Part shown: positions 6,306-31,001 of the stretch, in pieces
How positions within the stretch are numbered: position 1 is the first letter of the stretch
Layout: each line of letters opens with the position of its first letter
Source of the DNA: Aliiroseovarius sp. F20344
GTDB taxonomy: Bacteria; Pseudomonadota; Alphaproteobacteria; Rhodobacterales; Rhodobacteraceae
Length of the DNA stretch: 64,000 nucleotides
Reading direction: 5' to 3'
Assembly (NCBI RefSeq): GCF_023016155.1
Contig: NZ_JALKBG010000006.1
Span: 62,001 to 126,000, forward strand
Position numbers and translations under genes: made by a program
Notes under the pieces: model-generated
Told to the model about the DNA's origin: nothing
Database searches by the model: none
Seen by the model: only the letters and a program-made list of their open reading frames with translations

Positions 6306-7367
6306 TTAGTATTGTCGTGCGCCCGCTTCTGACGCGACACGGGGCACCAAGGCCCGGACAAGGCTGGTCATTTCCAGCGTCCCGACGGGCTTGCCATCGC
6401 GGGTGACGACGTAAGCGTGCGAGGTATCTCCACCTGACTGCGCGATCATGCTTTCCAGCGTATCATCATAGTCAACTTCGCCATGGGCGTCTGGCGGCAC
6501 CACGTCGCCTTCCAAAGGTGTCATGATCGACCTAACACGCAAAACCCGTGCGCGATTGATGTCGCTGACAAAGTCTTCGATGTATGGATCGTTCGGGTTC
6601 AGTAGGATGTGCTGCGGCTCGCCTTGTTGCACGACATAGCCGTCCTTCAGGATGACCAAGTGATCGGCCAGTTTAAGCGCCTCATCAAGATCGTGGGTAA
6701 TGAAGATGATCGTCTTGTGCAGCTCTTTCTGAAGCTCCAGCAACAGGTCCTGCATGTCGGTGCGGATCAACGGGTCAAGCGCCGAGAACGCTTCATCCAT
6801 CAGCATGATTGGCGAGTTCGAGGTCAGCGCCCGGGCAATGCCCACACGTTGCTGCATGCCACCGGAAAGCTGGTGCGGATAGTGCCCGCCATATCCGTGC
6901 AGCCCCACCCGATCGAGCCATTTGTCGGCTTCTGGCAAGTACTCGCTTTTAGGCACCCCGCGCACCGCTAACGTGGTTCCTGCGTTCTCAGCCACGGTCC
7001 GGTGGGGCAGTAGGGCAAACTTCTGGAACACCATCGACATGGTTTCGCGCCGCATTTTGCGCAGCTGTTCTTCGTCGTAGGAAAGGACATCTTCGCCATC
7101 GACTTCGACCTGCCCGGCAGTGGGTTCGATCAGGCGGTTCAGGTGACGGATCAGGGTCGACTTACCGGACCCCGACAGCCCCATTATCACGGTGATCTCG
7201 CCTTCCTGCATATCGACATTGATGTCTTTCAGGCCCAGAACATGGCCGTGTTCTTTCAGAAGATCAGCCTTAGAGGTTCCGTCATAAACGTGTTTCAGTG
7301 CGCTTTCTGGGTCGGCACCGAAGATCTTGTACAGGTTACGGATCGAGACTTTGATTTTATTGGTCAT
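6306..7367 (-). CDS. proV: Glycine betaine/proline ABC transporter ATP-binding protein
   Basis: ATPase subunit of 353 residues for a betaine-type (OpuA/ProU) importer. It shows Walker A GLSGSGKST, the family signature LSGGMQQRVGIARAL and Walker B IMLMDEAFSALD, with a C-terminal regulatory (CBS-like) region after about residue 280 that senses ionic strength in some homologues. It ends an operon proX-proW-proV on the minus strand and starts 14 bases after proW. The substrate is likely a quaternary ammonium osmolyte; proximity to a methylamine-type catabolic cluster suggests a catabolic as well as osmoprotective role, which is inference. Confidence 0.9.
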   Translation of the reverse strand: MTNKIKVSIRNLYKIFGADPESALKHVYDGTSKADLLKEHGHVLGLKDINVDMQEGEITVIMGLSGSGKSTLIRHLNRLIEPTAGQVEVDGEDVLSYDEEQLRKMRRETMSMVFQKFALLPHRTVAENAGTTLAVRGVPKSEYLPEADKWLDRVGLHGYGGHYPHQLSGGMQQRVGIARALTSNSPIMLMDEAFSALDPLIRTDMQDLLLELQKELHKTIIFITHDLDEALKLADHLVILKDGYVVQQGEPQHILLNPNDPYIEDFVSDINRARVLRVRSIMTPLEGDVVPPDAHGEVDYDDTLESMIAQSGGDTSHAYVVTRDGKPVGTLEMTSLVRALVPRVASEAGARQY

Positions 7368-7381: not shown

Positions 7382-8413
7382 TCAGTGTTTCTGCGAAGCG
7401 TTGACACGGTCAAGTGCAGCTTTGGTCACGCGGTCAAGGATGATCGCCAAAAGGACAATCCCAAGACCGGACACAAGCCCCACACCCAGTTCAAGGTTGC
7501 GAATGCCGCGAAGCACAAGCACACCAAGCCCCGGCGCCGAGACCAGAGATGCAATTACAACCATCGCAAGGCTCATCATGATAGTCTGGTTCACACCGGC
7601 CATAATGTTGGGAAGGGCAAGCGGGATTTGCACGTTAAATAGCTTTTGCCTGTCCGTCATTCCGAAGCTGTCCGCGGCCTCGATCACTTCTTTGTCCACC
7701 AGACGGATACCCAGATCGGTCAGGCGGATGACCGGCACGATGGCGTAGAGAATAATGGCGATGCCATAGAGCTTTGGTTCCGTAACAGAGAACAAGAAGA
7801 TCAGCGGAATTAGATAGACGAAAGACGGAAGCGTCTGGAGCATATCTAACACCGGGATTGTCATTCTTTGAAGCCGGTCATTTCGTGACATGGCAATGCC
7901 TATGGGCACCCCTATTAAAACGCAAAGGAACGCACAGACGAAGATGATCGCGAGCGTTTGCATCGCGTGGTCATAGTGATCGACGAAGGCAAGAAACATC
8001 AGGCAGGCCACAACAAAACCGACCAGCTTAATGGACTTGGAGGCGTAGTATACGACTAGCCCAAGGATTGGGATCATGATCCACCATGGTGTGGCTTCGA
8101 AAGTCGCGAGCGCGAAATCCAACATCCAGCTTAGCGGTTGAGTGACCGGGTCCAAGATAAAACGCAATGCGTCCTTGGCAGACAAAAATGCATTCTCAAC
8201 GCCCTTGGTCACATCCCGAGACTGAGCGAATGATCCGCATGCCGCGTTAAGCTCGTCAAGCGATGGGAATGGAACATCCAGCATCGAAGTTTCTTCTTTG
8301 GCCCCCGCTTGTGCCAGCAGTTCCGCCATCGAGAGCGGAGCATCCGAAGCCCCGCTGCTATCGCACCATTCGCGCAGGCCAAGCCCGTCAAACAGGAAGT
8401 CGTAAGTCGCCAT
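7382..8413 (-). CDS. proW: Glycine betaine/proline ABC transporter permease
   Basis: Membrane permease of 343 residues. The first 100 residues form a hydrophilic extension as in ProW, followed by at least five to six membrane segments. The ABC permease EAA loop is visible as IEAADSFGMTDRQKLFNVQ with the downstream PLALPNIMAG. It lies between the ATPase and the binding protein genes. A 121-base gap with a hairpin separates it from proX, which would allow higher expression of the binding protein. Confidence 0.9.
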   Translation of the reverse strand: MATYDFLFDGLGLREWCDSSGASDAPLSMAELLAQAGAKEETSMLDVPFPSLDELNAACGSFAQSRDVTKGVENAFLSAKDALRFILDPVTQPLSWMLDFALATFEATPWWIMIPILGLVVYYASKSIKLVGFVVACLMFLAFVDHYDHAMQTLAIIFVCAFLCVLIGVPIGIAMSRNDRLQRMTIPVLDMLQTLPSFVYLIPLIFLFSVTEPKLYGIAIILYAIVPVIRLTDLGIRLVDKEVIEAADSFGMTDRQKLFNVQIPLALPNIMAGVNQTIMMSLAMVVIASLVSAPGLGVLVLRGIRNLELGVGLVSGLGIVLLAIILDRVTKAALDRVNASQKH

Positions 8414-8534: not shown

Positions 8535-9509
8535 TTACTTGATCAACGCGGCAAGCTTCTCGCGTGCGCTGTCGTTGACCCAACCCGACCAGATGTCCGA
8601 GTTGTTGGTGATGAAGTAAACAGCTGCCTCTTCGGTCGAAGCTCCATTTTCGTCGGCCCAAGCAAGAACGCTATTCAGCACGTCAATGTTGAAGCTGACA
8701 TTCGACATCAGCGCGTCGATTTCGGGCTCGCGTTCAGCCAATGCCGAGGTCGCAACAGTCAACACAGGTGCAGGTGGGAAATCGGATACGCCAGGAGCGT
8801 CATTGTCCGCTTGAGCGTTCGCTTTGTGGACGGCTTCGTCAATCGGACCAATTTCGATTTTGGTCATTGGGTATTTGCCAAGCACAGCAGTCGGCGCCCA
8901 GTAGTATCCAAACCAAGGCTGCTTATCGTCATAAGCGGCGGCAATCGAGGTCGCCAGTGTCTCACCCGATCCGTGGTCAAAGATTTCCATCTTATCACGC
9001 ATGCCCAAAGCGGTAATGATGTTGTCGTTCACGATCCGGCAGCCCCAGCCGACCGGACAGTTGTTGAAACGACCGCCCACAAGATCAGGATTTGCCATGA
9101 TGTCTTGAACAGTCTTTAGCTCAGGATGTGCTTCAGCCAAGTATGATGGGATCCACCAACCTTCTACGCCACCGGGATCGAACACGGGGGTTAGCTCTTT
9201 GACTTTGCCTTCTTCCTTCAGCTTCGCATAGGCTTCGCCGGTCGAGTTTAGCCAAAGCTCGGTCACGATGTCAGGCTCTTGGTTCTCTGACAGAGATGCA
9301 ACGGCGGTCACGGTTGCAGATGGAACCAATTCAACTGTGCACCCATAGCCTTGCTCCATCAGGAACTTGGACACGTGTGTAATGATCTGGGATGAAGGCC
9401 AGTTCATCTCGGTGATCGATACTTCACCGCAATCAGCATAGGCTGCCGAGCCAGTTGACATTACGGCAACTGCCGCCATGCCTTTCACATTTTTCAGAAA
9501 CTTAATCAT
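8535..9509 (-). CDS. proX: Glycine betaine-type ABC transporter substrate-binding protein
   Basis: Periplasmic binding protein of 324 residues with a clear Sec signal peptide (MIKFLKN, hydrophobic core, cleavage after SAAYA). The mature chain begins with CGEVSITEMNWPSSQI and later carries DKQPWFGYYWAP, aromatic-rich elements typical of the OpuAC fold that form the cation-pi box for quaternary amines. The start at 9509 has GGGAGAA upstream. It is the first gene of the proXWV operon; 204 bases separate it from the stop of the M24 gene upstream, room for its own promoter. The exact ligand (betaine, choline, carnitine or another) cannot be read from the sequence. Confidence 0.88.
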   Translation of the reverse strand: MIKFLKNVKGMAAVAVMSTGSAAYADCGEVSITEMNWPSSQIITHVSKFLMEQGYGCTVELVPSATVTAVASLSENQEPDIVTELWLNSTGEAYAKLKEEGKVKELTPVFDPGGVEGWWIPSYLAEAHPELKTVQDIMANPDLVGGRFNNCPVGWGCRIVNDNIITALGMRDKMEIFDHGSGETLATSIAAAYDDKQPWFGYYWAPTAVLGKYPMTKIEIGPIDEAVHKANAQADNDAPGVSDFPPAPVLTVATSALAEREPEIDALMSNVSFNIDVLNSVLAWADENGASTEEAAVYFITNNSDIWSGWVNDSAREKLAALIK

Positions 9510-9713: not shown

Positions 9714-10892
9714 TCAAAGAATGACTGGCAGCTCGCGTGCTGCCCGTTCCGTTAGCAAGGTTGATCCTTGCGCGCCGACGACGATGTTTTCTTCGTGTAC
9801 CATCATGTGTCCATTTCCGTATGACAGTGATGGCTCGATCGTCAGCACCATGTTTTCAACAAGGACTGTTTCGTCAAACGCAGCGTGCGAAGGTTGCTCG
9901 GTCAGCTGCATTCCCAGCCCATGGCCAAGCCGCCCGATATCGCCGCCAGAGCTGTCTATTTCGGAAATGACCGCCGACATCGCCATGAACAGATCGCGAC
10001 ATGTATTGCCGGGCTTCGCGGCCTCTATTCCGGCCTGCGTTGCCCGCCATAAAACGTCATAAGCACGTTTCGCATCATCGCTGGCATGGCCGATGGCCCA
10101 GTTTCGATCAAAGTCGCAGAAATAGCCATCCCATGTGCAACCCGTATCCAGCATAAGCACATCACCGCCGTGCAGAGGACGCTGCGACGGGGGCGAAATC
10201 ACATCGGCATATCCACCTTGATCTGCCGCGCCGACCACATAGGGCGCATCATCCGCCCCCAAGCCAATCGCGGCAAGACGGAACCGACGGAAAACCTCTT
10301 CCAGTGGCAGACCTTCATAGATCAGCTCGGGCACTTTGCCAAATGCGGTCGAACCTATCCCGCAAATATAGCCAAGCTTTTCGATCTCGGCGTCGGATTT
10401 GACCATGCGCAGACTCTGCACAAGGCCCGTTGCATCGCCCACATGTAGACCCGGCAGCGCCGCCATCAACCGCTCCCAATCGCCCAAGGGCATCCTGAGC
10501 AGTGTCTCGTGGCCCTTCATCACTCCGATCTTCTCACCGGTTTCAGAAAGTGGCGCCAACAGCTCAGTTAAAAGGCTGATCCCGTCGTCTTCCGGCGTCG
10601 GCGCGCTCCATGTCCGGATATCGTCAAGCCAGCTACGGCGCATCAGTTCGGCGCCGATCTCGGGGATCACAGCGACCGGCTTGCCTCTTGCCGGTACAAA
10701 CACAAACCATGGCCGCGTCGGGCTTTGCCAAAAGAGCGTGTGAAACCCGGTGAAATACCGCACCTCTTGTTCGCTCATCAGCAACAGGCCAGCGAGGCCC
10801 GTTTCGGCCATTTGCGCCTGCGCCTTGGCGGTGCGTCGACGAAACTCATCATCCGCAAAACCGCGCTCTGGAGCTGTGTTGAAATCCTTCAT
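9714..10892 (-). CDS. M24 family metallopeptidase/hydrolase (Xaa-Pro peptidase-like)
   Basis: Protein of 392 residues with an N-terminal creatinase-like domain and a C-terminal pita-bread domain. All five metal ligands are visible: two Asp in LDTGCTWDGYFCDFDRNW, His in GHGLGMQLTEQPSH, and Glu in TIEPSLSY and MVHEENIVV. Retained ligands argue for a metal-dependent hydrolase rather than creatinase, which lacks metals. I prefer the ATG at 10892; the frame can be extended only to a TTG at 10910. It follows the GntR regulator by 14 bases in the same direction and so is probably in the same regulon as the divergent dioxygenase operon. Substrate unknown: a peptide or an amide bond of an N-methylated compound are options. 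Confidence 0.8.
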   Translation of the reverse strand: MKDFNTAPERGFADDEFRRRTAKAQAQMAETGLAGLLLMSEQEVRYFTGFHTLFWQSPTRPWFVFVPARGKPVAVIPEIGAELMRRSWLDDIRTWSAPTPEDDGISLLTELLAPLSETGEKIGVMKGHETLLRMPLGDWERLMAALPGLHVGDATGLVQSLRMVKSDAEIEKLGYICGIGSTAFGKVPELIYEGLPLEEVFRRFRLAAIGLGADDAPYVVGAADQGGYADVISPPSQRPLHGGDVLMLDTGCTWDGYFCDFDRNWAIGHASDDAKRAYDVLWRATQAGIEAAKPGNTCRDLFMAMSAVISEIDSSGGDIGRLGHGLGMQLTEQPSHAAFDETVLVENMVLTIEPSLSYGNGHMMVHEENIVVGAQGSTLLTERAARELPVIL

Positions 10893-10906
10893 GCCAGTTC
10901 CGCCTC

Positions 10907-11689
10907 TCAAGCCTTGCCTTGATCTTGCCGGGACACAATCGCATGCGCTGAAAACTCGGCCATTTCACCGCGCCAGACCTGACGTCCGAAACAAAACGGA
11001 GTTCCCTTGTCATCGCGGATAACCTGTTCCAGCTCGATCACTGTGTGGCTGGAAGCGATGTTCAGTAGCTGTGCCTCGAATGCCTGCACGCCACGCATTC
11101 GGATCACGATATCGCCAGTGTTTGCCAACGTATTATAACTCTTCTCAAGGATCTGCGTCGTAGATTGCCGTAAATTACGGTTCAGAAATCCTGGGAAGCG
11201 TTCGGCGATCAGATACTCGGTTTCGATGAAAATCGGATGTTTTCCAGAATGAAAAAGCCGAGTGTATTCGAACACGCCGCACCCTTCGGGCTGCTCAAGT
11301 AGTGAAGCAAGACGTGTATCGGCAAAACTCTCGGCTGTTTCGACGACTTCAATCTCCAGATCAACTTCGCTCGCTTGGGCGGTTGTTACAAAGCTGACCA
11401 TATTGCTGACGTTGTAATTAAGCCGTTTGGGCGACACAAAGCGACCACGCCTGTCAGCGTTATAGACAAGCCCTTCGGTTTCCAACGCTTCAAGGGCGCG
11501 TCGGCCAGTCATACGACTGACCCCATATTGCTCTGAAAGGCTGCGTTCCGAGGGCAGAATGTCATGCACGGTCAGATCACCCCGATGGATCTGGTCGCGA
11601 ATTTCGTTGGCAATCTGAAGAAAACGCGGACCGACTGAAGACCCTACCTTACCGTCCTGTTTGCTTCGCCTATCTAGCAAAATCTGCAT
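10907..11689 (-). CDS. GntR family transcriptional regulator, HutC/UTRA type
   Basis: Regulator of 260 residues. A winged helix-turn-helix (residues about 25-90: LTVHDILPSERSLSEQYGVS then a recognition helix MTGRRALEAL) is followed by a UTRA effector domain. It is divergent from the PhyH-led operon and upstream of the M24 gene. Two identical 12-bp palindromic cores, TGGTATATACCA, in the 141-base divergent region are its likely binding sites. The Shine-Dalgarno of the ATG at 11689 is poorly spaced (GAGG directly adjacent), so the start may be leaderless or slightly different. Confidence 0.88.
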   Translation of the reverse strand: MQILLDRRSKQDGKVGSSVGPRFLQIANEIRDQIHRGDLTVHDILPSERSLSEQYGVSRMTGRRALEALETEGLVYNADRRGRFVSPKRLNYNVSNMVSFVTTAQASEVDLEIEVVETAESFADTRLASLLEQPEGCGVFEYTRLFHSGKHPIFIETEYLIAERFPGFLNRNLRQSTTQILEKSYNTLANTGDIVIRMRGVQAFEAQLLNIASSHTVIELEQVIRDDKGTPFCFGRQVWRGEMAEFSAHAIVSRQDQGKA

Positions 11690-11718
11690 CCTCGAATCAT
11701 GCCGTGTTTGGCAGCGTA

Positions 11719-11734
11719 TTTGGTATATACCAAA
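11719..11734. promoter_or_regulatory. GntR operator 1 (16-bp perfect palindrome)
   Basis: TTTGGTATATACCAAA is a perfect palindrome 30 bases upstream of the GntR start codon. Its core TGGTATATACCA recurs exactly at 11800-11811. HutC-subfamily GntR regulators typically bind GT-N(x)-AC palindromes of this kind, so autoregulation is likely. Confidence 0.75.
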
Positions 11735-11756
11735 CCAATCAAGGTATTTCTTTTTG

Positions 11757-11812
11757 TTGACACGCAGCGATCCGGTCTCGTTAACTGATACCGTTCATCT
11801 GGTATATACCAG
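11757..11812 (+). promoter_or_regulatory. Promoter -35 element and GntR operator 2 upstream of the PhyH operon
   Basis: A consensus-like -35 hexamer TTGACA lies at 11757-11762, with a weak -10 candidate TTAACT at 11781. Operator 2, the perfect palindrome CTGGTATATACCAG, occupies 11799-11812, between that -10 and the ribosome site GGAGG of the first dioxygenase gene. Its centre is 79 bp from the centre of operator 1. The position downstream of the -10 suggests repression relieved by an inducer. Confidence 0.65.
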
Positions 11813-11830
11813 TATCAGGAGGGATTCGAA

Positions 11831-12700
11831 ATGGGCTTGTTAACACAAGAACAAAAAGACACGTTTTGGCGTGACGGCGTGCTGGTTGTTGAAAATGCGG
11901 TTACTGTAGACGAGCTGATGGCGCTGAGAACAGAGTTTTCCAGCTGGGTAGAAGAAAGCCGCGCCCATGATGGAGATTATGGCGAAACGCTGGATGGCCG
12001 TCCGCGGTTTGACCTACAGCCGGGCCACAGCGCCGAGACTCCGGGCCTGCGTCGCGTGCAATCCCCGGAAGAAGTCTCCGAGGTATTTGCCAAAACCATG
12101 CGCACGGCCAATACCGTCGATTTCTGCGCCGAGCTTATTGGCCCCGGCATCCGCTTTCACCACGGTAAGGTAAACTCCAAACTGCCCGGCACCGCGACGC
12201 AAGTGAAGTGGCATCAGGATTTCCCGTTTGAACCTATGACAAACGATGACATGATTACGGCCTTGTTGTTCATCGACGACGTAACACTCGAAAACGGTCC
12301 GCTTGAAGTGCTTCCCGGAACCCACAAGGGTCCGATCCATTCGCACTGGCATGACGGTGTATTTACTGGTGCCGTTGACGACGCGATCATAGAAGCGCAA
12401 CACGACAAAATCGTGAAGTGCACGGGCAAGGCTGGATCCGTCTGCCTGATGCATGCCAATCTGCTGCATGGTTCGGCCCCCAACCTGTCGGATCAATCGC
12501 GTACGCTGTACATCACCACTTACTACGCGGAAGATGCGATTGAGCTCAGCCCAAACCACCTGCCCAGCACTTTGACCCATGAACTGGTGCGCGGCGAAGC
12601 CAGCGGGCGCGTGCGCTGCACTCCATACGAAATGGAGCTGCCCGCCGTTCCCAAGGCGACATCCTTCTTTGCGCAACAAGAAGGGGCAGACATGGGCTGA
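11831..12700 (+). CDS. Phytanoyl-CoA dioxygenase family Fe(II)/2-oxoglutarate oxygenase
   Basis: Protein of 289 residues. The iron triad is intact: H128 and D130 in KWHQDF and H213 in LLHGSAPN, with R224 in SRTLY for 2-oxoglutarate. PhyH enzymes hydroxylate small molecules, including osmolytes and phosphonates, and can drive N- or O-demethylation. It lacks the WHSDFETWH motif of ectoine hydroxylase, so EctD is excluded. It leads an operon with a racemase-superfamily enzyme, a DMGDH-like flavoprotein and a second PhyH, and has a strong GGAGG ribosome site. Substrate unknown; an N-methylated amino acid or betaine is a reasonable inference from the neighbours. Confidence 0.85.
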   Translation: MGLLTQEQKDTFWRDGVLVVENAVTVDELMALRTEFSSWVEESRAHDGDYGETLDGRPRFDLQPGHSAETPGLRRVQSPEEVSEVFAKTMRTANTVDFCAELIGPGIRFHHGKVNSKLPGTATQVKWHQDFPFEPMTNDDMITALLFIDDVTLENGPLEVLPGTHKGPIHSHWHDGVFTGAVDDAIIEAQHDKIVKCTGKAGSVCLMHANLLHGSAPNLSDQSRTLYITTYYAEDAIELSPNHLPSTLTHELVRGEASGRVRCTPYEMELPAVPKATSFFAQQEGADMG

Positions 12701-12725
12701 GGCCCTGTCCGATGGAACCCAAGCC

Positions 12726-13502
12726 ATGAGCACAGACGATCACATCGAAACGCTAGAGTTCAAGACCGATGACGGGCTTGGCGCACGTGCGTGCCTTGGA
12801 CTGATCGTGTTGCAAACCGACCAGACCATCGAGCATGAGTTCTCCACCGTTTTCGAACAAGTCAGCGACGTGGCGCTTTACAAAGCGCGCATTCCCAATG
12901 CAATGGATGTCTCGCCCGCCACGCTGCGCCAAATGGCGCTGGACTTGCCTCGCACTGCAGCGTTGCTACCACCAAGTTTTGATTTCGACGTGATCGGCTA
13001 TGCCTGTACGTCAGGAGCAACGATGATCGGCGAAGATCAGGTGGACGCCCTTATTCGCGAGATACACCCGGAGGCCAAAACAACCAACCCAATCACCGCG
13101 GTAAAAACCGCTCTTGGGACACTGGGGCTAGAGCGCATCGCGCTGGTCACACCCTATCCAGTCGATGTTACTTTGGAAATGCAGGACAACCTGCGGCGCG
13201 CCGGATTTCAGACCAACGCGGTGGCCTCGTTCAATCAATCCGACGATTTCACGGTGGCGCGGATCACCTCTGACAGCATTCTGAATGCTGTTCTGCGTAT
13301 TGGCGCGCGCGATGATATCGATGGCGTGTTCGTCTCGTGCACCAGTCTTCGCGCCCTGCAAGTGATCGCCAAGGCAGAAGACTTGCTCGGCAAGCCCGTT
13401 ATCTCCTCTAATCAAGCCCTTGCATGGCACATGATGCGGCGCGCCGGAGTGTCTGACATTCCCTCAAACGCTGGGCACCTTTTCAGCACCAACATTTCAT
13501 AG
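12726..13502 (+). CDS. Asp/Glu racemase-superfamily protein (maleate isomerase/EutA/arylmalonate decarboxylase-like)
   Basis: Protein of 258 residues starting at the ATG at 12726, 25 bases after the dioxygenase stop. Both catalytic cysteines of the superfamily are present: C94 in GYACTSGAT and C205 in VSCTSLRAL. This two-cysteine pattern fits maleate isomerase and the EutA-type proteins found in ectoine-utilisation clusters. Those proteins isomerise or racemise small dicarboxylates or related acids. The rest of the ectoine pathway genes are not seen here, so a different substrate is likely. The open frame extends upstream to 12579 but overlaps the dioxygenase and is not used. Confidence 0.8.
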   Translation: MSTDDHIETLEFKTDDGLGARACLGLIVLQTDQTIEHEFSTVFEQVSDVALYKARIPNAMDVSPATLRQMALDLPRTAALLPPSFDFDVIGYACTSGATMIGEDQVDALIREIHPEAKTTNPITAVKTALGTLGLERIALVTPYPVDVTLEMQDNLRRAGFQTNAVASFNQSDDFTVARITSDSILNAVLRIGARDDIDGVFVSCTSLRALQVIAKAEDLLGKPVISSNQALAWHMMRRAGVSDIPSNAGHLFSTNIS

Positions 13503-13516
13503 AACAGGACCAATTC

Positions 13517-15934
13517 ATGGCCAATACTCTTCCCTCCCACGCGCAGGTCGTGATCATCGGTGGCGGCATTCACGGCTGTTCCGTGGCGTACCACCTTGCA
13601 AAGGCAGGTTGGAAAGACGTGGTCCTACTTGAGCGGAAAACGCTGACCAGCGGAACAACTTGGCACGCGGCGGGGTTGGTTGGACAGTTGCAGGGCAGCC
13701 ATTCGACAACCGCCTTCGCCAGTTATGGCGTCGAGCTTTTGCAGGAAATCGAGGCCGAGACCGGTCAGAACCCGGGCTTCCGCCAATCCGGGTCTATTTC
13801 AATCGCGGTTAACGAAGAACGACTGGCCGAGTTGAAACGCAAAGCGGATTTCGCATCGCTGTTTGGTGTCGAAGCGCATTATATGGAAACGGCTGAAATC
13901 GCCGAGCGTTGGCCCCTGATGAACGCCGAAGGGGTCTTGGGTGGCATCCATATGCCGTCGGACGGTTCGGCCAATCCAATCGACTTAACTCAAGCGCTGG
14001 CCAAGGGTGCCCGTATGCACGGCGCCAGTATTCGCGAAAACATCAAGGTTGAAGAAGTTTTGACGGCAGGTGGCAAAGTCACCGGGGTCCGCACCGATCA
14101 GGGCACGATCACTGCCGATGTTGTGGTCAATTGCGGTGGTATGTGGGCGCGTGAACTGGGCCGCCAGAACGGTGTGGGCGTACCGCTCCATGCCTGCGAG
14201 CACTATTACCTCGTGACCGAACCCATTCCGGACCTGCCGTCTGACCTACCGGTGCTGCGGTCCTATTGCGATGGCACCTATTGGAAGGAAGACGCCGGCA
14301 AACTGCTGTTTGGTTTCGCACATTTTCACGCCAAGGCTTGGGCAAAGGATGGCATTCCCGACAGCTTTGAGTTCGACAGCCTACCGTTCGTCGAAGACGA
14401 TGTGATGGAAGTATTGGAACTTAGCATGAATCGGGTGCCAATCCTGCAAGAAACCGGCATCCGCACATTCTTTAACGGGCCAGAAAGCTATTCGCACGAC
14501 GGTCGCTTTACGCTTGGCGAAGCGCCGGACCTCAAGGGCTATTACGTGCTCGCCGGAGTCAATTCGACCGGTATTCAATCTGGTCCCGGCGCGGGCAAGG
14601 CGCTTGCCGATTGGATCATGGCGGGCCACCCACCGATGGACCTTGCCGAGATGGACCCCGCCCGCATCGAGGACTGGCAGGCGCGCGATCCCTACCTGCA
14701 AAAACGCTGCCCTGAAACGCTGGTGCTGACTTACGCGATGCATTGGCCCGGTCGTCAACGCGAGGCCGCGCGTAACCTGCGCCGCACACCGTTTTATCAC
14801 CCGATGAAAGCACGCGGTGCTGTCTATGCCGAGGCGCAGGGCTGGGAGCGCCCCGGCTGGTTTGCCCCAGATGGCGTTGAGCCGAAGTACGACTATTCCT
14901 TCCACCGCCCCAGCTGGTTCGAACACGCGCAAGCAGAGCAGATAGCTGCACGCGAAGGCGTAGCGATGATCGACTATTCGATGCTTGGAAAGCTGATGGT
15001 CGAAGGTCGAGACGCCGAAACCTTTCTGCAACGGGTATGTGCCAACGACATGGCCATGCCCGTCGGACGCGTGGCCTATTCACTGATGCTCAATGAACGT
15101 GGTGGTATTGAAAGCGATGTAACGGTGGCGCGTCACAGCGAAGACAGCTTTATGGTGATGAGTTCTATCTCTCACACCCGCCGTGATCGGGACCACCTGA
15201 CGCGCCACATCCAGCCCAATGAGGATGTCCGCCTGCGCGATGCGACGTCCTCTTACGGCGTGCTTTCTATTGCAGGGCCAAAAGCGCGTGATCTTCTGTC
15301 TGCGGTGACGGATATCGATCTGTCGGACGCGGCCTTCCCGTTCAACAGCTTCCAGTATTTCCACATCGGTCACGCACCGATCTTTGCGCAGCAGCTGTCC
15401 TACACCGGCGAACACGGCTGGGAGATTTTCATCACCCCAGACTTCGCAGAGCATGTGTTTGAAGTGCTCATGGAGGCAGGTGAACCTCTTGGCCTAAGGC
15501 TCGTTGGTGGCGAGGCGCTTAACGCGTTGCGCATCGAAAAAGGGTTTCTACACTGGGGGCACGACATGTCCTACACCGAAGCGCCGCACCAGGTCGGCCT
15601 TGGGTTCACCTGCAAACCAAACAAGGCGATCCCTTTCATTGGGCGTGACGCGTATCTCAGCCGCAAGGCCGAGGGTAAAGGCCCGTTCCTTTGCCACATC
15701 AAGCTCACCGAAACCGAGCCGCTGCTGCACCACAACGAGCCGGTCCTGCGCGACGGAAACGTCGTTGGCTTTGTCACAAGTGGGGCATTTGCCTACGCAC
15801 AAGATACCTCTGTCGGGTTGTGCTTTGTCTCGACATCCGAAGGCAGAGCGTCGCTGCTAAGCGGTGAGTATTCGGTCATGGTGGAAGGCAGGGCAATCCC
15901 CGCCCAGCTGAGCCTAAAGCCCTTCTTGGCGTAA
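13517..15934 (+). CDS. Dimethylglycine/sarcosine dehydrogenase-like FAD enzyme with aminomethyltransferase (GcvT) domain
   Basis: Protein of 805 residues with two halves. Residues 1-400 are a DAO-type FAD oxidoreductase with VVIIGGGIHGCSVAYHLA (dinucleotide site) and TTWHAAGL, where H50 matches the covalent FAD histidine of DMGDH. Residues about 430-800 are a folate-binding GcvT fold (SLMLNERGGIESDVTVARH). Such enzymes oxidatively remove an N-methyl group and pass it to tetrahydrofolate. It lies 14 bases after the racemase-like gene, inside the GntR-controlled operon. The neighbouring betaine transporter supports an N-methylated substrate, but dimethylglycine, sarcosine or another methylamine acid cannot be told apart by eye. 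Confidence 0.88.
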   Translation: MANTLPSHAQVVIIGGGIHGCSVAYHLAKAGWKDVVLLERKTLTSGTTWHAAGLVGQLQGSHSTTAFASYGVELLQEIEAETGQNPGFRQSGSISIAVNEERLAELKRKADFASLFGVEAHYMETAEIAERWPLMNAEGVLGGIHMPSDGSANPIDLTQALAKGARMHGASIRENIKVEEVLTAGGKVTGVRTDQGTITADVVVNCGGMWARELGRQNGVGVPLHACEHYYLVTEPIPDLPSDLPVLRSYCDGTYWKEDAGKLLFGFAHFHAKAWAKDGIPDSFEFDSLPFVEDDVMEVLELSMNRVPILQETGIRTFFNGPESYSHDGRFTLGEAPDLKGYYVLAGVNSTGIQSGPGAGKALADWIMAGHPPMDLAEMDPARIEDWQARDPYLQKRCPETLVLTYAMHWPGRQREAARNLRRTPFYHPMKARGAVYAEAQGWERPGWFAPDGVEPKYDYSFHRPSWFEHAQAEQIAAREGVAMIDYSMLGKLMVEGRDAETFLQRVCANDMAMPVGRVAYSLMLNERGGIESDVTVARHSEDSFMVMSSISHTRRDRDHLTRHIQPNEDVRLRDATSSYGVLSIAGPKARDLLSAVTDIDLSDAAFPFNSFQYFHIGHAPIFAQQLSYTGEHGWEIFITPDFAEHVFEVLMEAGEPLGLRLVGGEALNALRIEKGFLHWGHDMSYTEAPHQVGLGFTCKPNKAIPFIGRDAYLSRKAEGKGPFLCHIKLTETEPLLHHNEPVLRDGNVVGFVTSGAFAYAQDTSVGLCFVSTSEGRASLLSGEYSVMVEGRAIPAQLSLKPFLA

Positions 15935-15966
15935 TCTCACGGCAAATAAGGGAAAGGGCAAAGAGC

Positions 15967-16794
15967 ATGGGAAAGAAACTGACTGACGCGCAAATCGAAG
16001 CATTTCACCGTGACGGATTTGTATCCCCAATCGATGTCTTTAGCGAAGAAGAGGCGCTTCGACTGCGCAACGCGCTGGAATCCGCAGAACGGAAATGGCC
16101 TGAGGCCTTTCAGGGTGCGGCGCGTAACAATGCTCACCTGAACATCACCTGTCTGGATGAAATTGCCCACAACTCGAACCTCGTTGACGCAATTGAAGAC
16201 CTGATCGGGCCGAACATTCTGAATTACGGCACAGTCATCTTCATCAAAGAACCCAAGGATCCGGGCTTTGTCAGCTGGCATCAGGATGCGCGCTATATGG
16301 GGCTTGAACCGCATGTCGGAGTGACAGCATGGGTGGCGCTCTCAACCGCCGATGATGAAAGCGGCTGTATGCAGATGATTCCGGGCAGCCAACATGAGAT
16401 CAGAGATCACAATGACACTTATGGCGAGCAGAACATCCTCACCCGCGGGCAGGAGGTTCCCGATGTCGACGAAAGCAAAGCCGTCTCGACACCTTTGCGC
16501 CCGGGTCAGATGTCAATCCACAGCGCGCAAGTGATCCACAGCTCGCAGCCCAACCGCAGCAATGACCGCCGTATCGGTTTCGTCATTCAGTCCTACATAC
16601 CACCACATGTGCGCCAAACCGTAATGGAAACCGGCGCCCAATTGGTGCGCGGCACTGACACCGAGGGAAACTTCAAACCTCTGTCGCGCCCTAAAACGGA
16701 CATGCACCCGGAAGACCTGGCAGCAAAAGAATGGGTCAATGAAGTTTGGGCTGAGATTTTGTATCAGGGCGCTACGAGGCGACGGGACTATTAA
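15967..16794 (+). CDS. Second phytanoyl-CoA dioxygenase family oxygenase of the operon
   Basis: Protein of 275 residues with a complete active site: H105 and D107 in SWHQDA, H191 in VIHSSQPN and R201/R202 in RRIGF. It is only distantly similar to the first PhyH of this operon, so the two probably act on different intermediates. The ATG at 15967 follows the flavoprotein stop by 32 bases, with a GGGAAAGGG ribosome site upstream. It appears to be the last gene of the operon; no strong terminator was found immediately after it. Confidence 0.85.
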   Translation: MGKKLTDAQIEAFHRDGFVSPIDVFSEEEALRLRNALESAERKWPEAFQGAARNNAHLNITCLDEIAHNSNLVDAIEDLIGPNILNYGTVIFIKEPKDPGFVSWHQDARYMGLEPHVGVTAWVALSTADDESGCMQMIPGSQHEIRDHNDTYGEQNILTRGQEVPDVDESKAVSTPLRPGQMSIHSAQVIHSSQPNRSNDRRIGFVIQSYIPPHVRQTVMETGAQLVRGTDTEGNFKPLSRPKTDMHPEDLAAKEWVNEVWAEILYQGATRRRDY

Positions 16795-17538: not shown

Positions 17539-18909
17539 TTACCGGTCAACCTTCAATCCGCTGGGAACCTGTTCTGGAATTCGGCTGTTTTCAGCGTTTG
17601 CAGCGGCTCCCGTCAGGCTTTCTAAGAAGGCCACAAGGGCTGCGATGTCACTATCACTTCGCAACGCAATTTTGATATCAAGAGCACGAGCTTGCCGCGA
17701 CATCTCGATCTGGTCTTGCTGGATGACAAAATCAATGTCGCTCAGCCATGACACATTGGGTAGCGTCAGATCATCTGGTGCCCATGCATGACGCGCGGCT
17801 TCTGGGGCCATGTGGTGTCGTATCATCCGTTCCAGCGTCGGATAGGCCCCGTTATGCCCATACGGCCCGGTCAGAGCCACGTTGCGTAGCATAGGAGTGC
17901 GGAACCGATAGGCATCGTTCAGATCATCGGTCTCGCCCATCCGGCCTACATCGCGCGCATAAGGGTCGAACTTCCGCGTCCGTCCGGGGCCAAAAGCAGG
18001 TAGGCCCAACGCGTGAAACTGCTGGTCTGTTAACAGCGGCCCCGCGTGGCAACCACTGCACCCAGCGTCGCCAAAGAAAAGCTCCATGCCGTTCATCTGT
18101 TGTGGCGTCAAGGCCGCTTCATCGCCGCGTAGAAATGCATCAAACGGGCTGTCTAACGAAGTGAAATCCTGGACCATAAAATGCGCCAAGGCATCGGCAA
18201 TCTGGGTGATCGAGACGTCTTCCGCCTTCTCGATCTCGGAAAACGCCGCGACAAACCCATCGCCATAGGCCGGGATTGTGCGCACCCGTTTAGCAATAAT
18301 CGGCCACGCTGCATCGATGCGGTCGCGGGTTGCACCGATCACCTCGTTCTCACCGACATTACCAGCCATTTCGATGCTCGATGTCATCGGAAACAAAGCC
18401 TGTGCCGCCAGCACGGTCTCCAGCCCATCGGGCAGCCATTCTTCGGCGGGGGTGTTGAAGCCGTTGCCATAGATCGGATTCGCGCTGATCCGACCGTCAT
18501 GCATCAACACGCTGATGGATTTCGCGCCAAGGTTCCACAGCGCGGGTGCATTGCGAGGCACGCGTTTGACGATCTTGTCCGCCCCGCTACCTGATACGCG
18601 TTCCGGACCAAGCCCCAGCCCGCCTTCGCCCAGCCCCAAGGACAACCCGTCCGAAGTTCCAAATGCGGGATGATGGCAGGTTCCACAGCTAATATTTCTG
18701 TTCCCAGACAATATCTTGTCGTAAAATAGCAGGCGACCAAGCTCGGCCTTTTGGGCGTCGACGACCATGAAGTCGTCCATCGTCAGTGGCTTGGGCAAAG
18801 CGGGCACGTCGGCAAGCGCTGGCATGGTTAGACACAGGAAGGACGCAAGATGCGACAGACCTCGAAATCCGTGCTGATTGCGGCGGTGCTTGCGCTGCTT
18901 GCATTTCAT
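17539..18909 (-). CDS. Di-haem cytochrome c peroxidase/MauG family protein
   Basis: Periplasmic protein of about 456 residues with two haem-binding CxxCH motifs, CGTCHHP in the N-terminal domain and CSGCHAG in the C-terminal one, plus the family segments GRLLFYDKILSGNRNISC and FRTPMLRNVALTGPYGHNG. It reduces hydrogen peroxide or, for MauG-type members, carries out oxidative protein modification. The start is uncertain: the ATG at 18909 gives a basic n-region, a hydrophobic core and cleavage after MPALA. That makes its 5' end overlap the divergent Sel1 gene by 60 bases. The open frame continues further upstream but that part is antisense to the Sel1 gene. Confidence 0.85.
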   Translation of the reverse strand: MKCKQRKHRRNQHGFRGLSHLASFLCLTMPALADVPALPKPLTMDDFMVVDAQKAELGRLLFYDKILSGNRNISCGTCHHPAFGTSDGLSLGLGEGGLGLGPERVSGSGADKIVKRVPRNAPALWNLGAKSISVLMHDGRISANPIYGNGFNTPAEEWLPDGLETVLAAQALFPMTSSIEMAGNVGENEVIGATRDRIDAAWPIIAKRVRTIPAYGDGFVAAFSEIEKAEDVSITQIADALAHFMVQDFTSLDSPFDAFLRGDEAALTPQQMNGMELFFGDAGCSGCHAGPLLTDQQFHALGLPAFGPGRTRKFDPYARDVGRMGETDDLNDAYRFRTPMLRNVALTGPYGHNGAYPTLERMIRHHMAPEAARHAWAPDDLTLPNVSWLSDIDFVIQQDQIEMSRQARALDIKIALRSDSDIAALVAFLESLTGAAANAENSRIPEQVPSGLKVDR

Positions 18910-19341
18910 CCCGCCCACGCGGAAATCGAAGCCGCGCGCGATCTGATGGAGGCTGGGGAATTTGAAGCCGCCCGCGACGCACTTTGGACCGCTGCCCGGT
19001 CGGGCAATGCCGACGCGGAGGAGTTGATCGGGGTAATGTATGCCATGGGGCTGGGTGTCGAACGCGACGACCAACGCGCGTTTGAATGGTATCTGCGCAG
19101 CGCCATGAAAGGTCATCCCGGTGCGCAGTCCGGGATTGGTTGGTATTACGAGATCGGACGTGGCATGCCCGCCCCGGATCTGGTCCGCGCTTACATGTGG
19201 TACACGTTGTCGGCCATTGGCGGCGATCCCGACGCGGCAATCAGCCTTGAAGAGGTCGTAAAGAAAATGACCAAAGATGAGATCGAAAAAGCGCATATTC
19301 TGGTCGAGGATTACCGCGTCTGGATGTACCCGTTCCGGTAA
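18850..19341 (+). CDS. Secreted Sel1-like repeat protein
   Basis: Protein of 163 residues with a textbook Sec signal peptide (MRQTSKS, hydrophobic stretch, cleavage after HPAHA) and an AGGAAGGA ribosome site. The mature part contains tandem TPR/Sel1-like repeats: GNADAEELIGVMYAMGLGVE, then HPGAQSGIGWYYEIGRG, then PDLVRAYMWYTLSAIGGD. Such proteins are periplasmic scaffolds. It is divergent from the cytochrome c peroxidase and overlaps its predicted 5' end. Partner and role unknown. Confidence 0.8.
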   Translation: MRQTSKSVLIAAVLALLAFHPAHAEIEAARDLMEAGEFEAARDALWTAARSGNADAEELIGVMYAMGLGVERDDQRAFEWYLRSAMKGHPGAQSGIGWYYEIGRGMPAPDLVRAYMWYTLSAIGGDPDAAISLEEVVKKMTKDEIEKAHILVEDYRVWMYPFR

Positions 19342-19354
19342 ACCCGGACGGAAA

Positions 19355-19383
19355 AACGGCGCGAGGATCATCCCCGCGCCGTT
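19355..19383. terminator. Bidirectional terminator between Sel1 gene and dctP
   Basis: Nine-bp GC-rich stem AACGGCGCG / CGCGCCGTT between two convergent genes. An A-run precedes it and TTGATACTT follows, so it can serve both directions. Confidence 0.75.
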
Positions 19384-19388
19384 GATAC

Positions 19389-20447
19389 TTAGTTCAGGTC
19401 AGCGTCACGTGCACCGTTCACGTCTGCCTCGGCTGCGGCAACGGCATCGGTCAGCGCGGTGAAGATTTGATCCCCACGGGTCACGTTCGACTTGAACCAA
19501 TCATAGACCGGCGAAGCAGCTTGCTTGAACGCGTCTTTTTCGGCCGGAGTCGGAACATAAAGGTCTCCGCCACCTGCAACGAAATCTTCATAGGCTTGGA
19601 TCGACTTGCGCTTGGGCGAGGCGAAAGTGGCCTGCTGTAGAGCATAGAACCCGTCCACTACGACACGGCGCATGTCTTCCGGCATGTCCATGAACTTCTG
19701 GTTCGACATCCACCACAAAGCACCCATGTAGGCGTGGCCGTCCAGCGTCACATATTGCAGGCCCGCATCGGGGAACTTCATGCCCATGATATCGGTGATG
19801 CCGTTTTTAGATCCTTCAACGACACCAGTCTGGAAACTGGTGAACAACTCGGGCCATGGGATCGGAGTGGGCGACGCACCAAGGGCTTTAACCAGTTCCT
19901 GCGGAAGGTCAGCCACAACGGTACGGATCTTCAAGCCAGCCATGTCAGCCGGGGCCGCCACGCGACGTTGCGTGTTGGCAAAGTTGCGCCAACCGCCAGT
20001 GTTGCCAATGGTCATTAGGCGGATCGTGTCGCCGGAATCCTCAAGTGCCATGGCGCGCATCTGACGGGTAAAATCGCCCGATAGAACATGCTCGGCAATC
20101 CGGTCATCTGCCATCAGGTAGGGCAGGTCCAGAACTTGCACATATGGGAAAAGACCCGACGCCCCGCCCGAGGTCGAGATATAGATGTCGATGGAGCCAT
20201 CAGCCACCCCCTGAAGGCATTCCGCACCGTTCGAACACAGCTGCGTGCCGATAAACAGCTCGACCTCGATCGCGCCGTTTGATGCGGCTTCGACATAGTT
20301 TTTAAAGACGACTAGACCGTCATAGTCTTCGTCGTTTTCGTTCGAGTTAGCAGTCGCGCGGATCGTATAGTCCGCTGCAACAGCCGTCAGCGCCGAGCCG
20401 GCCACCAAGGCCGACAGCGCCACCGTCTTTGCCAGTTTCAAAATCAT
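19389..20447 (-). CDS. TRAP transporter substrate-binding protein, DctP family
   Basis: Periplasmic protein of 352 residues with a Sec signal (MILKLAKTV..., cleavage after TAVAA). The DctP fold is recognisable from LKIRTVVADLPQELVKALGASPTPIPWPELFTSFQTGVVEG split over residues about 165-205, including the carboxylate-binding arginine region. The start at 20447 has GGAGGAAA seven bases upstream. It ends a six-gene minus-strand operon with two monooxygenase components and an aldo/keto reductase, so its ligand should be their substrate, possibly a sulfonated sugar (inference). TRAP binding proteins need a carboxylate or comparable anion; a sulfonate would be unusual but known cases exist. Confidence 0.9.
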   Translation of the reverse strand: MILKLAKTVALSALVAGSALTAVAADYTIRATANSNENDEDYDGLVVFKNYVEAASNGAIEVELFIGTQLCSNGAECLQGVADGSIDIYISTSGGASGLFPYVQVLDLPYLMADDRIAEHVLSGDFTRQMRAMALEDSGDTIRLMTIGNTGGWRNFANTQRRVAAPADMAGLKIRTVVADLPQELVKALGASPTPIPWPELFTSFQTGVVEGSKNGITDIMGMKFPDAGLQYVTLDGHAYMGALWWMSNQKFMDMPEDMRRVVVDGFYALQQATFASPKRKSIQAYEDFVAGGGDLYVPTPAEKDAFKQAASPVYDWFKSNVTRGDQIFTALTDAVAAAEADVNGARDADLN

Positions 20448-20482
20448 GCGTGTTTCCTCCTGTTGCACGTAGTTTTTTATTT

Positions 20483-21952
20483 TCAGTTCAAGAACCCGGT
20501 AATCCGGGGAATGGTCAGCGAGATTTCCGGCACGAAGGTGATCAGGAAGATCACTGCAACTTCGACCGCCAGAAATGGCAGAATGGCTTTTGCAATTGTC
20601 GTCACCCTTTCGTGTGACACGGATGCCGCGACGAACAGGACCAGCCCCATGGGTGGCGTGGCAAGCCCCACAGTCAGGTTAACACACATGATGATTGCAA
20701 AGTGGACGGGCTCGACCCCGAGGCCCGCAAAGACAGGGCCAAGAATAGGGCCAAGGATGATGATCGCGGGGCCTGCATCCAGAAACATCCCGACGACGAA
20801 CAGCAAAAGGTTGATCAAAAACAATAAGATCAGCGGGTTCTCGGACAGGGTCAGGATGAACTGGGCCAAGATCTCGGGCGCGTGGGACAGGCTGACCACG
20901 GTTTTGAATGACATGGCCGCACCAACCAGCAGCAGCACCACGGCCGAGGTGATTCCTGCACGGGTGAAGACCTCGGGCAGGTCTTTCAGCTTCATCGTGC
21001 GTAGGACCATGAAGCCGACAAGCATCGCATAGGCGACAGCGACGGCGGCAGCCTCGGTCGGGGTGAAGACACCGGCAAGGATACCGCCAAGGATCAGGAT
21101 TGGCGTTTGCAGCGGCACCACCGCGCGCTTGCAGACCACGCGGAATTCGGGGCTGACCATGCGGCGCAAACCCAGCATCAGACCGTGGGCCAGCAGAACT
21201 GCGCCCAAGAAGACCAACCATTTCGATTGCGCGCTGTCCTGAGAGGGCACGAACTGCGCCAACAGAAGCCCAAGGTTCAAGCGCACCAGCACGAAGGAAA
21301 ACCAGCTTTCCAACCCGCTGATTTCCACGTGTTCAAAGGTCACGCGGCGCGCGGCCGGCAAGTCGTACTTGTCAGCCATGACGCGGACCATAATCATCAG
21401 GCCCACGCCGACCAACACGCCGGGCACGATGCCTGCTAAAAATAAAGCCGCCACGCTTTCGCCCATTACATAGGCATAGATAATCATGATGCCCGAGGGC
21501 GGGATGATCGGCCCAATGACCGAACTTGCCGCGGTGACGGCTGCGGCGAAACGGCGGGAATAGCCTTCGCGCTCCATCGCGGGAATCAGCATGGACCCAA
21601 GCGCCGAAGTGTCAGCGACGGCAGACCCAGACAGCCCGGCAAACAGGATCGAGGACAGAATGTTCACCTGCGCCAGACCTCCGCGCAGATGCCCCATCAA
21701 AGCTTGCGAGAACTCGACCAGTCGCACGGTGATCCCACCCCGGTTCATCAGCTCGCCCGCCAGCATGAAGAAGGGGATCGCCATCAGCGGGAAACTGTCC
21801 ATCCCGTTATAAAGGTTGCGATACAGAAGCGTGATGTCGCGTTCTTGCCCGTTCAGCCAGAGCAAAGCGCCCGGAGCGGCCAGAAGGCAGAAGAAGACCG
21901 GCAGGCCGACCAGAAGAAGGAAAAGGAAAAGGGGAAGGAACCAGATCAACAT
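20483..21952 (-). CDS. TRAP transporter large permease, DctM family, with an internal insertion
   Basis: Integral membrane protein of 489 residues, longer than the usual 420-430. Family hallmarks include FPLMAIPFFMLAGELMNRGG near the N-terminus and GVFTPTEAAAVAVAYAM in the second half. The extra length sits at about residues 205-275 and looks like an additional hydrophilic and hydrophobic segment before the second transport domain. It overlaps the DctQ stop codon by one base (TAATG), indicating translational coupling. It drives sodium-coupled uptake together with DctQ and DctP. Confidence 0.9.
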   Translation of the reverse strand: MLIWFLPLFLFLLLVGLPVFFCLLAAPGALLWLNGQERDITLLYRNLYNGMDSFPLMAIPFFMLAGELMNRGGITVRLVEFSQALMGHLRGGLAQVNILSSILFAGLSGSAVADTSALGSMLIPAMEREGYSRRFAAAVTAASSVIGPIIPPSGIMIIYAYVMGESVAALFLAGIVPGVLVGVGLMIMVRVMADKYDLPAARRVTFEHVEISGLESWFSFVLVRLNLGLLLAQFVPSQDSAQSKWLVFLGAVLLAHGLMLGLRRMVSPEFRVVCKRAVVPLQTPILILGGILAGVFTPTEAAAVAVAYAMLVGFMVLRTMKLKDLPEVFTRAGITSAVVLLLVGAAMSFKTVVSLSHAPEILAQFILTLSENPLILLFLINLLLFVVGMFLDAGPAIIILGPILGPVFAGLGVEPVHFAIIMCVNLTVGLATPPMGLVLFVAASVSHERVTTIAKAILPFLAVEVAVIFLITFVPEISLTIPRITGFLN

Positions 21953-22542
21953 TACTCGGCCCCTCCCGTTTCAAGGCCGGGTCGCTCTGGCAGCTTTTCA
22001 CCCTGCCCAAGAAAACGAACGAAACGTTCCAACAGGAGTTCGATATTCACAAGGATCAGCAGCACGATTCCGATGAAAATCGACAGCATCATCCAGCTGC
22101 GCGGAATGCGATACCATTCATCAAAGCTGAGCGAGGTGGGAAGGTAAAGCGACGCGGTTGCGAAGCGTCCACCAAGTCCGGTGACCTCTTTATATCCGAT
22201 CTGAACGCCGACGATCAGGACCACCAAACAGATCAGCAGCAGCACAAACTGCAAGATATGCATGGCTTTGCCCTTGATCACTGCGTCGATAAAGTCGATT
22301 GCCACAAACCCTCCGTTCCGGAAGGCAGTTGGAGCCATCAGTCCCGTCATCCACAGCATGAAAAAGCGCGCGGCCTCGTCCGGCCACGGCAGGGCGTTGC
22401 CCAAAACATAACGAAAGAACACCTGAATAAGGATCGCGATTACCATTACCGCAATGGCGAACACGCCCACCCAACGCCCGACCGCAAGAAGCCCGGTGTT
22501 CAGCGGACGCAATACATCCAAGACAGCAAAGACTGCCTTCAT
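21952..22542 (-). CDS. TRAP transporter small permease, DctQ family
   Basis: Membrane protein of 196 residues with four hydrophobic segments and the DctQ pattern LPWPDEAARFFMLWMTGLM in the second segment region. Its stop overlaps the DctM start. It lies 57 bases downstream of the flavin reductase, on the same strand, so transporter and enzymes are probably co-transcribed. Its function is to complete the TRAP permease. Confidence 0.88.
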   Translation of the reverse strand: MKAVFAVLDVLRPLNTGLLAVGRWVGVFAIAVMVIAILIQVFFRYVLGNALPWPDEAARFFMLWMTGLMAPTAFRNGGFVAIDFIDAVIKGKAMHILQFVLLLICLVVLIVGVQIGYKEVTGLGGRFATASLYLPTSLSFDEWYRIPRSWMMLSIFIGIVLLILVNIELLLERFVRFLGQGEKLPERPGLETGGAE

Positions 22543-31000: not shown

Positions 31001-31001
31001 C

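Follow-up and report, generated by a model that had tools for sequence, protein, structure and literature searches.

A GntR-linked gene block of Aliiroseovarius sp. F20344 with a possible role in the catabolism of a small N-methylated zwitterion

For many of the methylated nitrogen compounds turned over by marine bacteria, the catabolic genes are unknown, and the question addressed here is whether one such pathway is encoded by a block of six genes in Aliiroseovarius sp. F20344. The block occupies positions 9714–16794 of a stretch of 64,000 nucleotides (contig NZ_JALKBG010000006.1, positions 62,001 to 126,000), called the window from this point onwards, and encodes an M24 metallohydrolase, a GntR-type regulator, two PhyH-type oxygenases (PhyH1 and PhyH2), a EutA-like racemase/isomerase and a flavoprotein resembling dimethylglycine dehydrogenase (DMGDH). 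On balance, it appears to belong to a substrate-induced regulon by which one small N-methylated zwitterion of the ectoine/betaine type is taken up and broken down. No description of the set was found when the full-text literature, most subscription papers being beyond reach, was searched for it or for its SPO locus tags; four papers name SPO2441, and SPO2436–SPO2440 returned an unrelated spinach paper alone. The block poses a directly testable gene-to-metabolite problem.

The gene block and its predicted operator

The six genes form two divergent arms. The leftward arm (minus strand) consists of the GntR/UTRA regulator (10907..11689; Pfam/NCBIfam scan) and the prolidase-like M24 hydrolase with five metal ligands (9714..10892; Peptidase_M24, 112 bits), the latter being read from its ATG, as the open reading frame (ORF) listed begins at a TTG at 10910. 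The rightward arm (plus strand) starts with PhyH1, an Fe(II)/2-oxoglutarate oxygenase of the amino-acid/ectoine hydroxylase type (11831..12700; family scan and profile comparison), and continues with the two-cysteine racemase/isomerase resembling EutA and arylmalonate decarboxylase (12726..13502; family scan, model and alignment), the DMGDH-like flavoprotein with C-terminal folate-binding domains (13517..15934; DAO and GCV_T matches) and PhyH2, a second Fe(II)/2-oxoglutarate oxygenase and an optional member (15967..16794; family scan and alignment). The intergenic gaps within each arm measure 14–32 bp, that between PhyH1 and EutA being 25 bp with the EutA ATG at 12726. All six family matches in the Pfam/NCBIfam scans are far above chance, with ~99 bits for each of the two PhyH proteins. 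The original prediction, made from the DNA sequence, had placed five enzymes with complete active sites and one GntR regulator here, and the ORF table, the family scans and the invariant residues in orthologues (see below) bear this out.

Between GntR and PhyH1 the perfect palindrome TGGTATATACCA occurs twice, at 11721..11732 on the GntR/M24 side and at 11800..11811 on the PhyH1 side (palindrome search), and the 3.36-Mb host genome has no further site, up to one mismatch. Since the control—the same word reversed—has four sites in that genome, the number of sites alone is ordinary; it is their location that is unusual. For comparison, loci of relatives were gathered with the flavoprotein alone, the best 80 of 419 relatives being kept. 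Forty-six of these 80 loci have the site, including all 45 that bear GntR, and 71 of the 72 sites lie at most 250 bp from GntR, the remaining one (L084) being found 90 bp before a EutA-like gene. Neither GntR nor TGGTATATACCA is present in the other 34 loci, several of which are truncated, and the reversed word has no match in any of the 80. In the host genome, the ABC transporter next to the block lacks a site of its own. It appears that TGGTATATACCA is the predicted operator of the block GntR, its two sites presumably serving the two divergent arms. The single shared GntR regulator that had been postulated is supported by the same two results, i.e. by the site in every GntR-bearing locus and by the position of both host sites at this gap; in such loci, the palindrome may also be used as a genomic marker of the block.

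Gene content of related loci and the partner genes

Genes were counted per locus by tblastn, since the ORF caller missed some of them (e.g. EutA in L078). Over the 80 loci, EutA is present in 65, GntR in 45, M24 in 44, PhyH1 in 29, diaminopropionate ammonia-lyase (DAPAL) in 18, an M20 amidohydrolase in 15, PhyH2 in eight and an OpuAC-type binding protein in seven; for the 40 loci with full flanks, the corresponding counts are 37 (EutA), 32 (GntR), 28 (M24), 13 (PhyH1), 12 (DAPAL), 11 (M20), two (PhyH2) and four (OpuAC-type). A EutA-like gene lies upstream of the flavoprotein, on the same strand and within 1.6 kb, in 64/80 loci—directly adjacent in 46 and with M24 in between in 18—the situation being undecidable at contig ends in six more. 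In the window and in three of the 80 loci (L076, L134 and L138), the gene right after the flavoprotein is PhyH2. Records under alpha- and gammaproteobacterial names share the conserved neighbourhood, the flavoprotein with partners being found under the names Ruegeria pomeroyi (L078, strain SZCCDBG043), Leisingera, Roseovarius, SAR116, Luminiphilus and Oceanospirillaceae. Conservation, originally proposed as a check of the six-gene block across Rhodobacterales, holds for the neighbourhood, not for the exact six genes. Because PhyH2 occurs in so few loci and because M20 and DAPAL are missing partners, the six-gene block as such is not supported as the unit. The optional nature of PhyH2, the presence of M20 and DAPAL in the same gene run of some relatives, and the operator had all escaped the original prediction.

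The block is patchy and accessory, as follows from its rarity in three samples of genomes. Within the family (295 genomes, one per genus), a flavoprotein orthologue is found in six. Within the genus, it is present at 91–100% identity in two of 21 genomes, one of them (L165, 91%) having the transporter, M24, GntR, PhyH1, EutA and flavoprotein, with PhyH2 absent; three more genomes have a match at 49–50%, and the two of these regions that were read contain no other block gene. In the class sample (385 genomes), the flavoprotein was seen in one genome outside the family, together with PhyH1 and with no EutA, GntR or M24 in the 19.9 kb that was read. It should be noted that the flavoprotein is split into two ORFs in L119 (3952–6375) and L139 (10266 onward), reflecting a pseudogene or an assembly error, and that L043 (7420–13533) harbours a sister cluster without flavoprotein, composed of PhyH1 (79%), EutA, an ArgE/DapE-type M20, a cystathionine beta-lyase and a class IV aminotransferase.

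Judged from these gene contents, the gene set is incomplete in the window, M20 and DAPAL being partner genes absent from there. In Luminiphilus (L124, L127, L130) and Hellea (L122), a single run after a major facilitator superfamily (MFS) gene (Pfam MFS_1) contains PhyH2, M20, DAPAL, EutA, M24 and the flavoprotein; in L122 and L130 the full run reads PhyH1-MFS-PhyH2-M20-DAPAL-EutA-M24-DMGDH, and in L124 and L127, where PhyH1 was not found at the locus, it starts with the MFS gene. Another arrangement, with M24-DAPAL-M20-GntR opposite an arm ending in EutA-DMGDH, is seen in L081, L085, L096, L099, L108, L112 and L142. The host itself has a second locus (L063) with M20, DAPAL, paralogues of M24 (71%) and EutA (45%) and an Lrp/AsnC-type gene, its M20 resembling DoeB2 (328.7 of 550 bits). 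In the genome G184, the M20-DAPAL pair sits at a separate locus (L161), the 19.5 kb examined there containing neither M24 nor EutA. Across the 295-genome sample, and with relatedness uncorrected, a DAPAL orthologue is found in four of the six genomes with the flavoprotein versus 18 of the 289 others (p=3e-4, at a cut of 480 bits set after the scores had been seen), or versus 33 of 289 at the search threshold (p=0.003). The host lyase passes the NCBIfam model for DAPAL, PRK08206 (471.8 bits, cut-off 276), as well as TIGR01747 (284.3 of 274), and misses TIGR03528 (319.6 of 532). In 18/18 rows, the lyase keeps a lysine and two aspartates that align with K77, D120 and D189 of 4d9g and whose roles are known from the family. 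With the lyase over its cut-off, a 2,3-diaminopropionate-like end product is indicated.

Enzymes, transporter and the proposed route

Concerning the active sites, the orthologue alignments (from which matches with internal stops or under the score/length cuts were left out) show H128/D130/H213 of PhyH1 to be invariant in 30/30 rows, H105/D107/H191 of PhyH2 in 9/9, C94/C205 of the EutA-like protein (numbered from the Met start) in 63/63, D249/D260/H324/E353/E367 of M24—assigned as ligands by alignment to the Xaa-Pro dipeptidase 1pv9—in 45/45, and H50 of the flavoprotein in 72/72; the functional roles of the single residues are those known for the families. The flavoprotein, 805 residues long, has the domains DAO, FAO_M, GCV_T and GCV_T_C together with the conserved N-terminal histidine, which in DMGDH-type flavoproteins carries covalent flavin adenine dinucleotide; this is the architecture of DMGDH and sarcosine dehydrogenase, and its nearest relatives are DMGDH (471 bits) and dimethylglycine oxidase. 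Because of this architecture with its folate domain, the enzyme is expected to perform folate-linked oxidative N-demethylation; of the original assignment, the architecture stands, and the reaction keeps the status of an expectation drawn from it. The EutA-like protein has the fold and both catalytic cysteines of the two-cysteine Asp/Glu racemase-maleate isomerase superfamily. Its model (pLDDT 93.7) most resembles maleate isomerase (TM 0.83), followed by arylmalonate decarboxylase, which has one of the two cysteines only, and by allantoin/hydantoin racemases, so that inversion of a stereocentre would be its presumed function. A dicarboxylate-type intermediate, proposed originally, has this fold similarity to maleate isomerase as its sole basis. 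Profile comparison places PhyH1 next to leucine hydroxylase, ectoine hydroxylase and another PhyH protein, its single sequence being nearest to 7e01; its poor AlphaFold model (pLDDT 67.6) was left out of the analysis. PhyH2 is nearest to 6zyk.

The ABC transporter also runs leftward (minus strand), 204 bp beyond M24, and consists of an OpuAC-family, DmpX-like substrate-binding protein (8535..9509; family scan), an OpuAB/DmpW-like permease (7382..8413; ORF table) and an OpuAA/DmpV-like ATPase (6306..7367; ORF table); a transporter with a DmpX-like binding protein adjoins the block in L076, L078 and L082 (Marivita cryptomonadis CL-SK44), too. The binding protein matches the PDB entry 7yle, which we take to be RnDmpX, with 406 bits and 56.8% identity; the entry is named in PMC10030565. 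Seven of the eight residues of the DmpX pocket (W35, T64, W84, E113, W152, A153, Y200 and W202) are kept in the window protein, A153 being replaced by glycine, so that the four-tryptophan onium cage, Thr, Glu and Tyr are intact. The window binding protein is most like DmpX, and an onium/betaine-type substrate, in agreement with the original proposal of an N-methylated compound, is supported by the retained pocket residues. In the ten block-linked binding proteins examined, that of the window included, the seven residues other than A153 are kept, the first tryptophan falling outside the truncated L076 match. The same pocket, glycine included, is nevertheless present in 20 of 21 free relatives and does not, therefore, separate block-linked from free proteins. 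The tree of binding proteins requires four label changes, two or more of them forced; repeated recruitment would fit this, as would a single gain followed by losses. DmpX-like proteins occur in 59 genomes (the host's own included). In 25/80 loci there are genes of an Ehu-like transporter instead of the DmpX-like type (7/80), the two occurring together in none; with a Fisher p of 0.064, however, we do not regard their mutual exclusion as significant. Ehu-like genes were counted by membership in sequence clusters, with scans of one binding protein (176.3 of 190.9 bits versus EhuB) and one permease, confirmed as such, from these clusters. For SPO2441, the accessible parts of PMC10030565, PMC10130141, PMC9038784 and PMC9723723 give a 16.4-fold day:night ratio and higher values in early diatom growth.

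Based on the above, a route may be proposed in which GntR represses both divergent arms through its two TGGTATATACCA operators, and in which binding of the substrate or an intermediate to GntR presumably frees both. The onium compound would enter through the DmpXWV-like transporter, or through the Ehu-like one in other species. PhyH1, with or without PhyH2, would then hydroxylate it or oxidatively remove a first N-alkyl group. M24 and the M20 amidohydrolase encoded elsewhere would cleave C–N bonds to release an amino acid. The EutA-like enzyme, given its fold and two cysteines, might invert a stereocentre. The DMGDH-like enzyme, by its architecture, would oxidise N-methyl groups and pass the carbon to folate, and the pyridoxal phosphate (PLP)-dependent lyase of the DAPAL type from the second locus would finally yield a keto acid and ammonia. 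The order of steps—import, PhyH reaction, M24/M20 hydrolysis, EutA inversion, folate-linked demethylation and PLP elimination—is itself conjectural. To our knowledge, DMGDH-type flavoenzymes cannot oxidise a quaternary nitrogen, so an oxygenase step would be needed if the substrate is quaternary.

Several observations weigh against one coherent regulon of this kind. The EutA-like gene upstream of the flavoprotein is lacking in 10/80 loci; in two of these (L088 and L123) the sequence stops ~1.1 kb upstream, M24 lying in between, so that they are undecidable as well, and in five (L107, L111, L119, L144 and L164) PhyH1 directly precedes the flavoprotein with no EutA. The upstream EutA proteins are 34 to 75% identical to that of the window, so the gene may be swapped. 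DAPAL and M20 are found in just 18 and 15 of the 80 loci, two genomes with the flavoprotein (G075 and G187) have no DAPAL match, and the host M20-DAPAL locus, with its Lrp/AsnC-type gene, has no TGGTATATACCA in the host genome search. Finally, 20 regions were read around the best DmpX-like matches other than the host's own (three at 71–75% and 17 at 56–64%); M24 was present in one of them, the other block genes and TGGTATATACCA in none.

Two further regions of the window may be mentioned here. Beyond the block, 17539–22542 (minus strand) encodes an ORF of the di-haem cytochrome c peroxidase/MauG family and a TRAP transporter of the DctP family. Another PhyH protein (33673–34548, minus strand) adjoins genes of the KduI/IolB and PfkB families (30014–33686), in a cluster that by eye resembles inositol catabolism.

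Rival readings and known systems

The scarcity of block genes in free DmpX-like regions also weighs against a pathway related to dimethylsulfoniopropionate (DMSP), in which DMSP or a similar sulfonium compound would be imported by the transporter and degraded by the block. Such a role is suggested by the likeness of the binding protein to RnDmpX with its retained pocket and by PMC10030565, according to which DMSP is bound by DmpX of R. pomeroyi DSS-3, whereas trimethylamine N-oxide, betaine, choline and carnitine meet with little affinity. Sulfur-type neighbours occur in a few relatives, namely a BisC-type S/N-oxide reductase in L083, the cystathionine beta-lyase of the sister cluster L043 and a 3-mercaptopyruvate sulfurtransferase-like gene in L132 (249.5 of 250 bits). 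The amino-acid chemistry of DAPAL, EutA and DMGDH would, however, be needless for DMSP, and the loci with Ehu-like genes have those of another transporter instead, so this reading seems improbable. The block also raises the question of whether the cargo of some DmpX-like transporters is a compound other than DMSP. L093 has a 78% match to the L043 lyase at ~6 kb from its flavoprotein gene, L039 a molybdopterin oxidoreductase and L108 a BisC cluster mate; these are suggestive leads only. A 490-residue cysteine-synthase-like PLP protein directly follows the flavoprotein in L083, L108, L125 and L129 and is encoded at the same locus in L039 and L136 (scanned in L083, assigned by cluster or eye in the others); in L083 and, by cluster, L108 the BisC-type gene comes next.

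A variant ectoine/5-hydroxyectoine pathway would have PhyH1 hydroxylate, M24 open the ring, M20 deacetylate, and EutA with the PLP lyase finish, the flavoprotein having a side activity. The PhyH1 profile scores near EctD, the EutA model match reaches 176.3 bits, and the Ehu-like binding protein of a relative and the DoeB2-like M20 of the second locus point the same way. Each of the specific models tested is missed, however—TIGR02990 for EutA (176.3 of 318 bits), TIGR02993 for EutD/DoeA by M24 (47.6 of 613) and TIGR02408 for EctD/ThpD by PhyH1 (64.8 of 336.5)—and EutE (TIGR02994) has no match in the host genome. The host moreover has a separate cluster at ~200900–204700 of G000:C8 (L159, 7932–11733), near an OpuA-like transporter, with a DoeA-like M24 (577 of 613 bits), an ArgE-type deacetylase and a class III aminotransferase, which is probably its ectoine-type cluster; by eye, its DoeA-like protein lacks the metal ligands that the block M24 retains. 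With no reason for an N-methyl oxidase either, an ectoine variant is considered unlikely. That no single pathway exists, and that two or three unrelated scavenging reactions share one regulator, the sole true pair being EutA and the flavoprotein, would agree with the absence of each other member from many loci; the shared operator, the single gene run in distant taxa and the complementary loci make it quite doubtful.

Least probable is homarine or another pyridine betaine, an original suggestion that gained no support. An onium transporter and an N-demethylase would be compatible with it, but in the family scans no block gene is assigned to the Mgd family, none is an evident ring-cleaving enzyme, and a published homarine pathway (cited as Nat Microbiol 2026) is said in the accessible part of PMC13390433 to involve Mgd. 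The creatine lead was rejected on the M24 protein, which retains its metal ligands and scores 44.9 bits with creatinase 1chm versus 109 with dipeptidase PepE; creatinase is not known to have these ligands. For urea/guanidino compounds, the evidence is too sparse, an arginase-family gene lying near the flavoprotein in 2/80 loci (L100 and L138, a Puniceispirillum and an Oceanospirillaceae contig) and urease genes after it in 2/80 (L107 and L111, alphaproteobacterial contigs of metagenome-assembled genomes), as counted by sequence clusters with urease alpha confirmed in L111. Within the favoured reading of an N-methylated zwitterion, the diaminopropionate-like end product leads to a bolder proposal, to which only a small probability is given: the substrate might be a marine osmolyte, as yet undescribed, with N-methylated, N-acylated 2,3-diaminopropionate as its core, i.e. 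a relative of β-N-methylamino-L-alanine (BMAA), with PhyH taking the first methyl off the onium nitrogen, the DMGDH-like enzyme the rest, and DAPAL forming pyruvate. A search of the accessible literature found no paper joining BMAA and DAPAL.

Compared with known systems, the block shares with glycine betaine/dimethylglycine demethylation the folate-linked DMGDH-type flavoprotein, an upstream oxygenase and onium-binding ABC uptake; it differs in its PhyH enzymes, the first demethylation of glycine betaine being due to a Rieske oxygenase, and we know of no role there for M24, EutA, M20 or DAPAL. The host lyase is like the diaminopropionate ammonia-lyase YgeX in its score above the NCBIfam cut-off and in the lysine and two aspartates, the difference being that its gene lies outside the block, with M20 and the M24/EutA paralogues. 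With the DMSP transporter DmpXWV (7yle), the likeness is in the identity of the binding protein and its cage residues, and the difference in the glycine at Ala153 and in the adjoining catabolic block, dmpXWV not being co-located with known DMSP genes according to the accessible part of PMC10030565. Finally, ectoine/5-hydroxyectoine catabolism (Ehu/Ueh, EutABCDE, DoeAB) offers a EutA-type racemase, an M24 protein, a deacylase, a PLP lyase, a PhyH hydroxylase and, in relatives, Ehu-like uptake; the block departs from it in missing the tested equivalog cut-offs, in its metal-binding M24, in the extra N-methyl oxidase and in its GntR-UTRA regulator, that of the ectoine system being of the MocR/GabR type (PMC8739950, accessible part). 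Taken as a whole, the gene set looks like a parallel to hydroxyectoine catabolism with an N-methyl step added.

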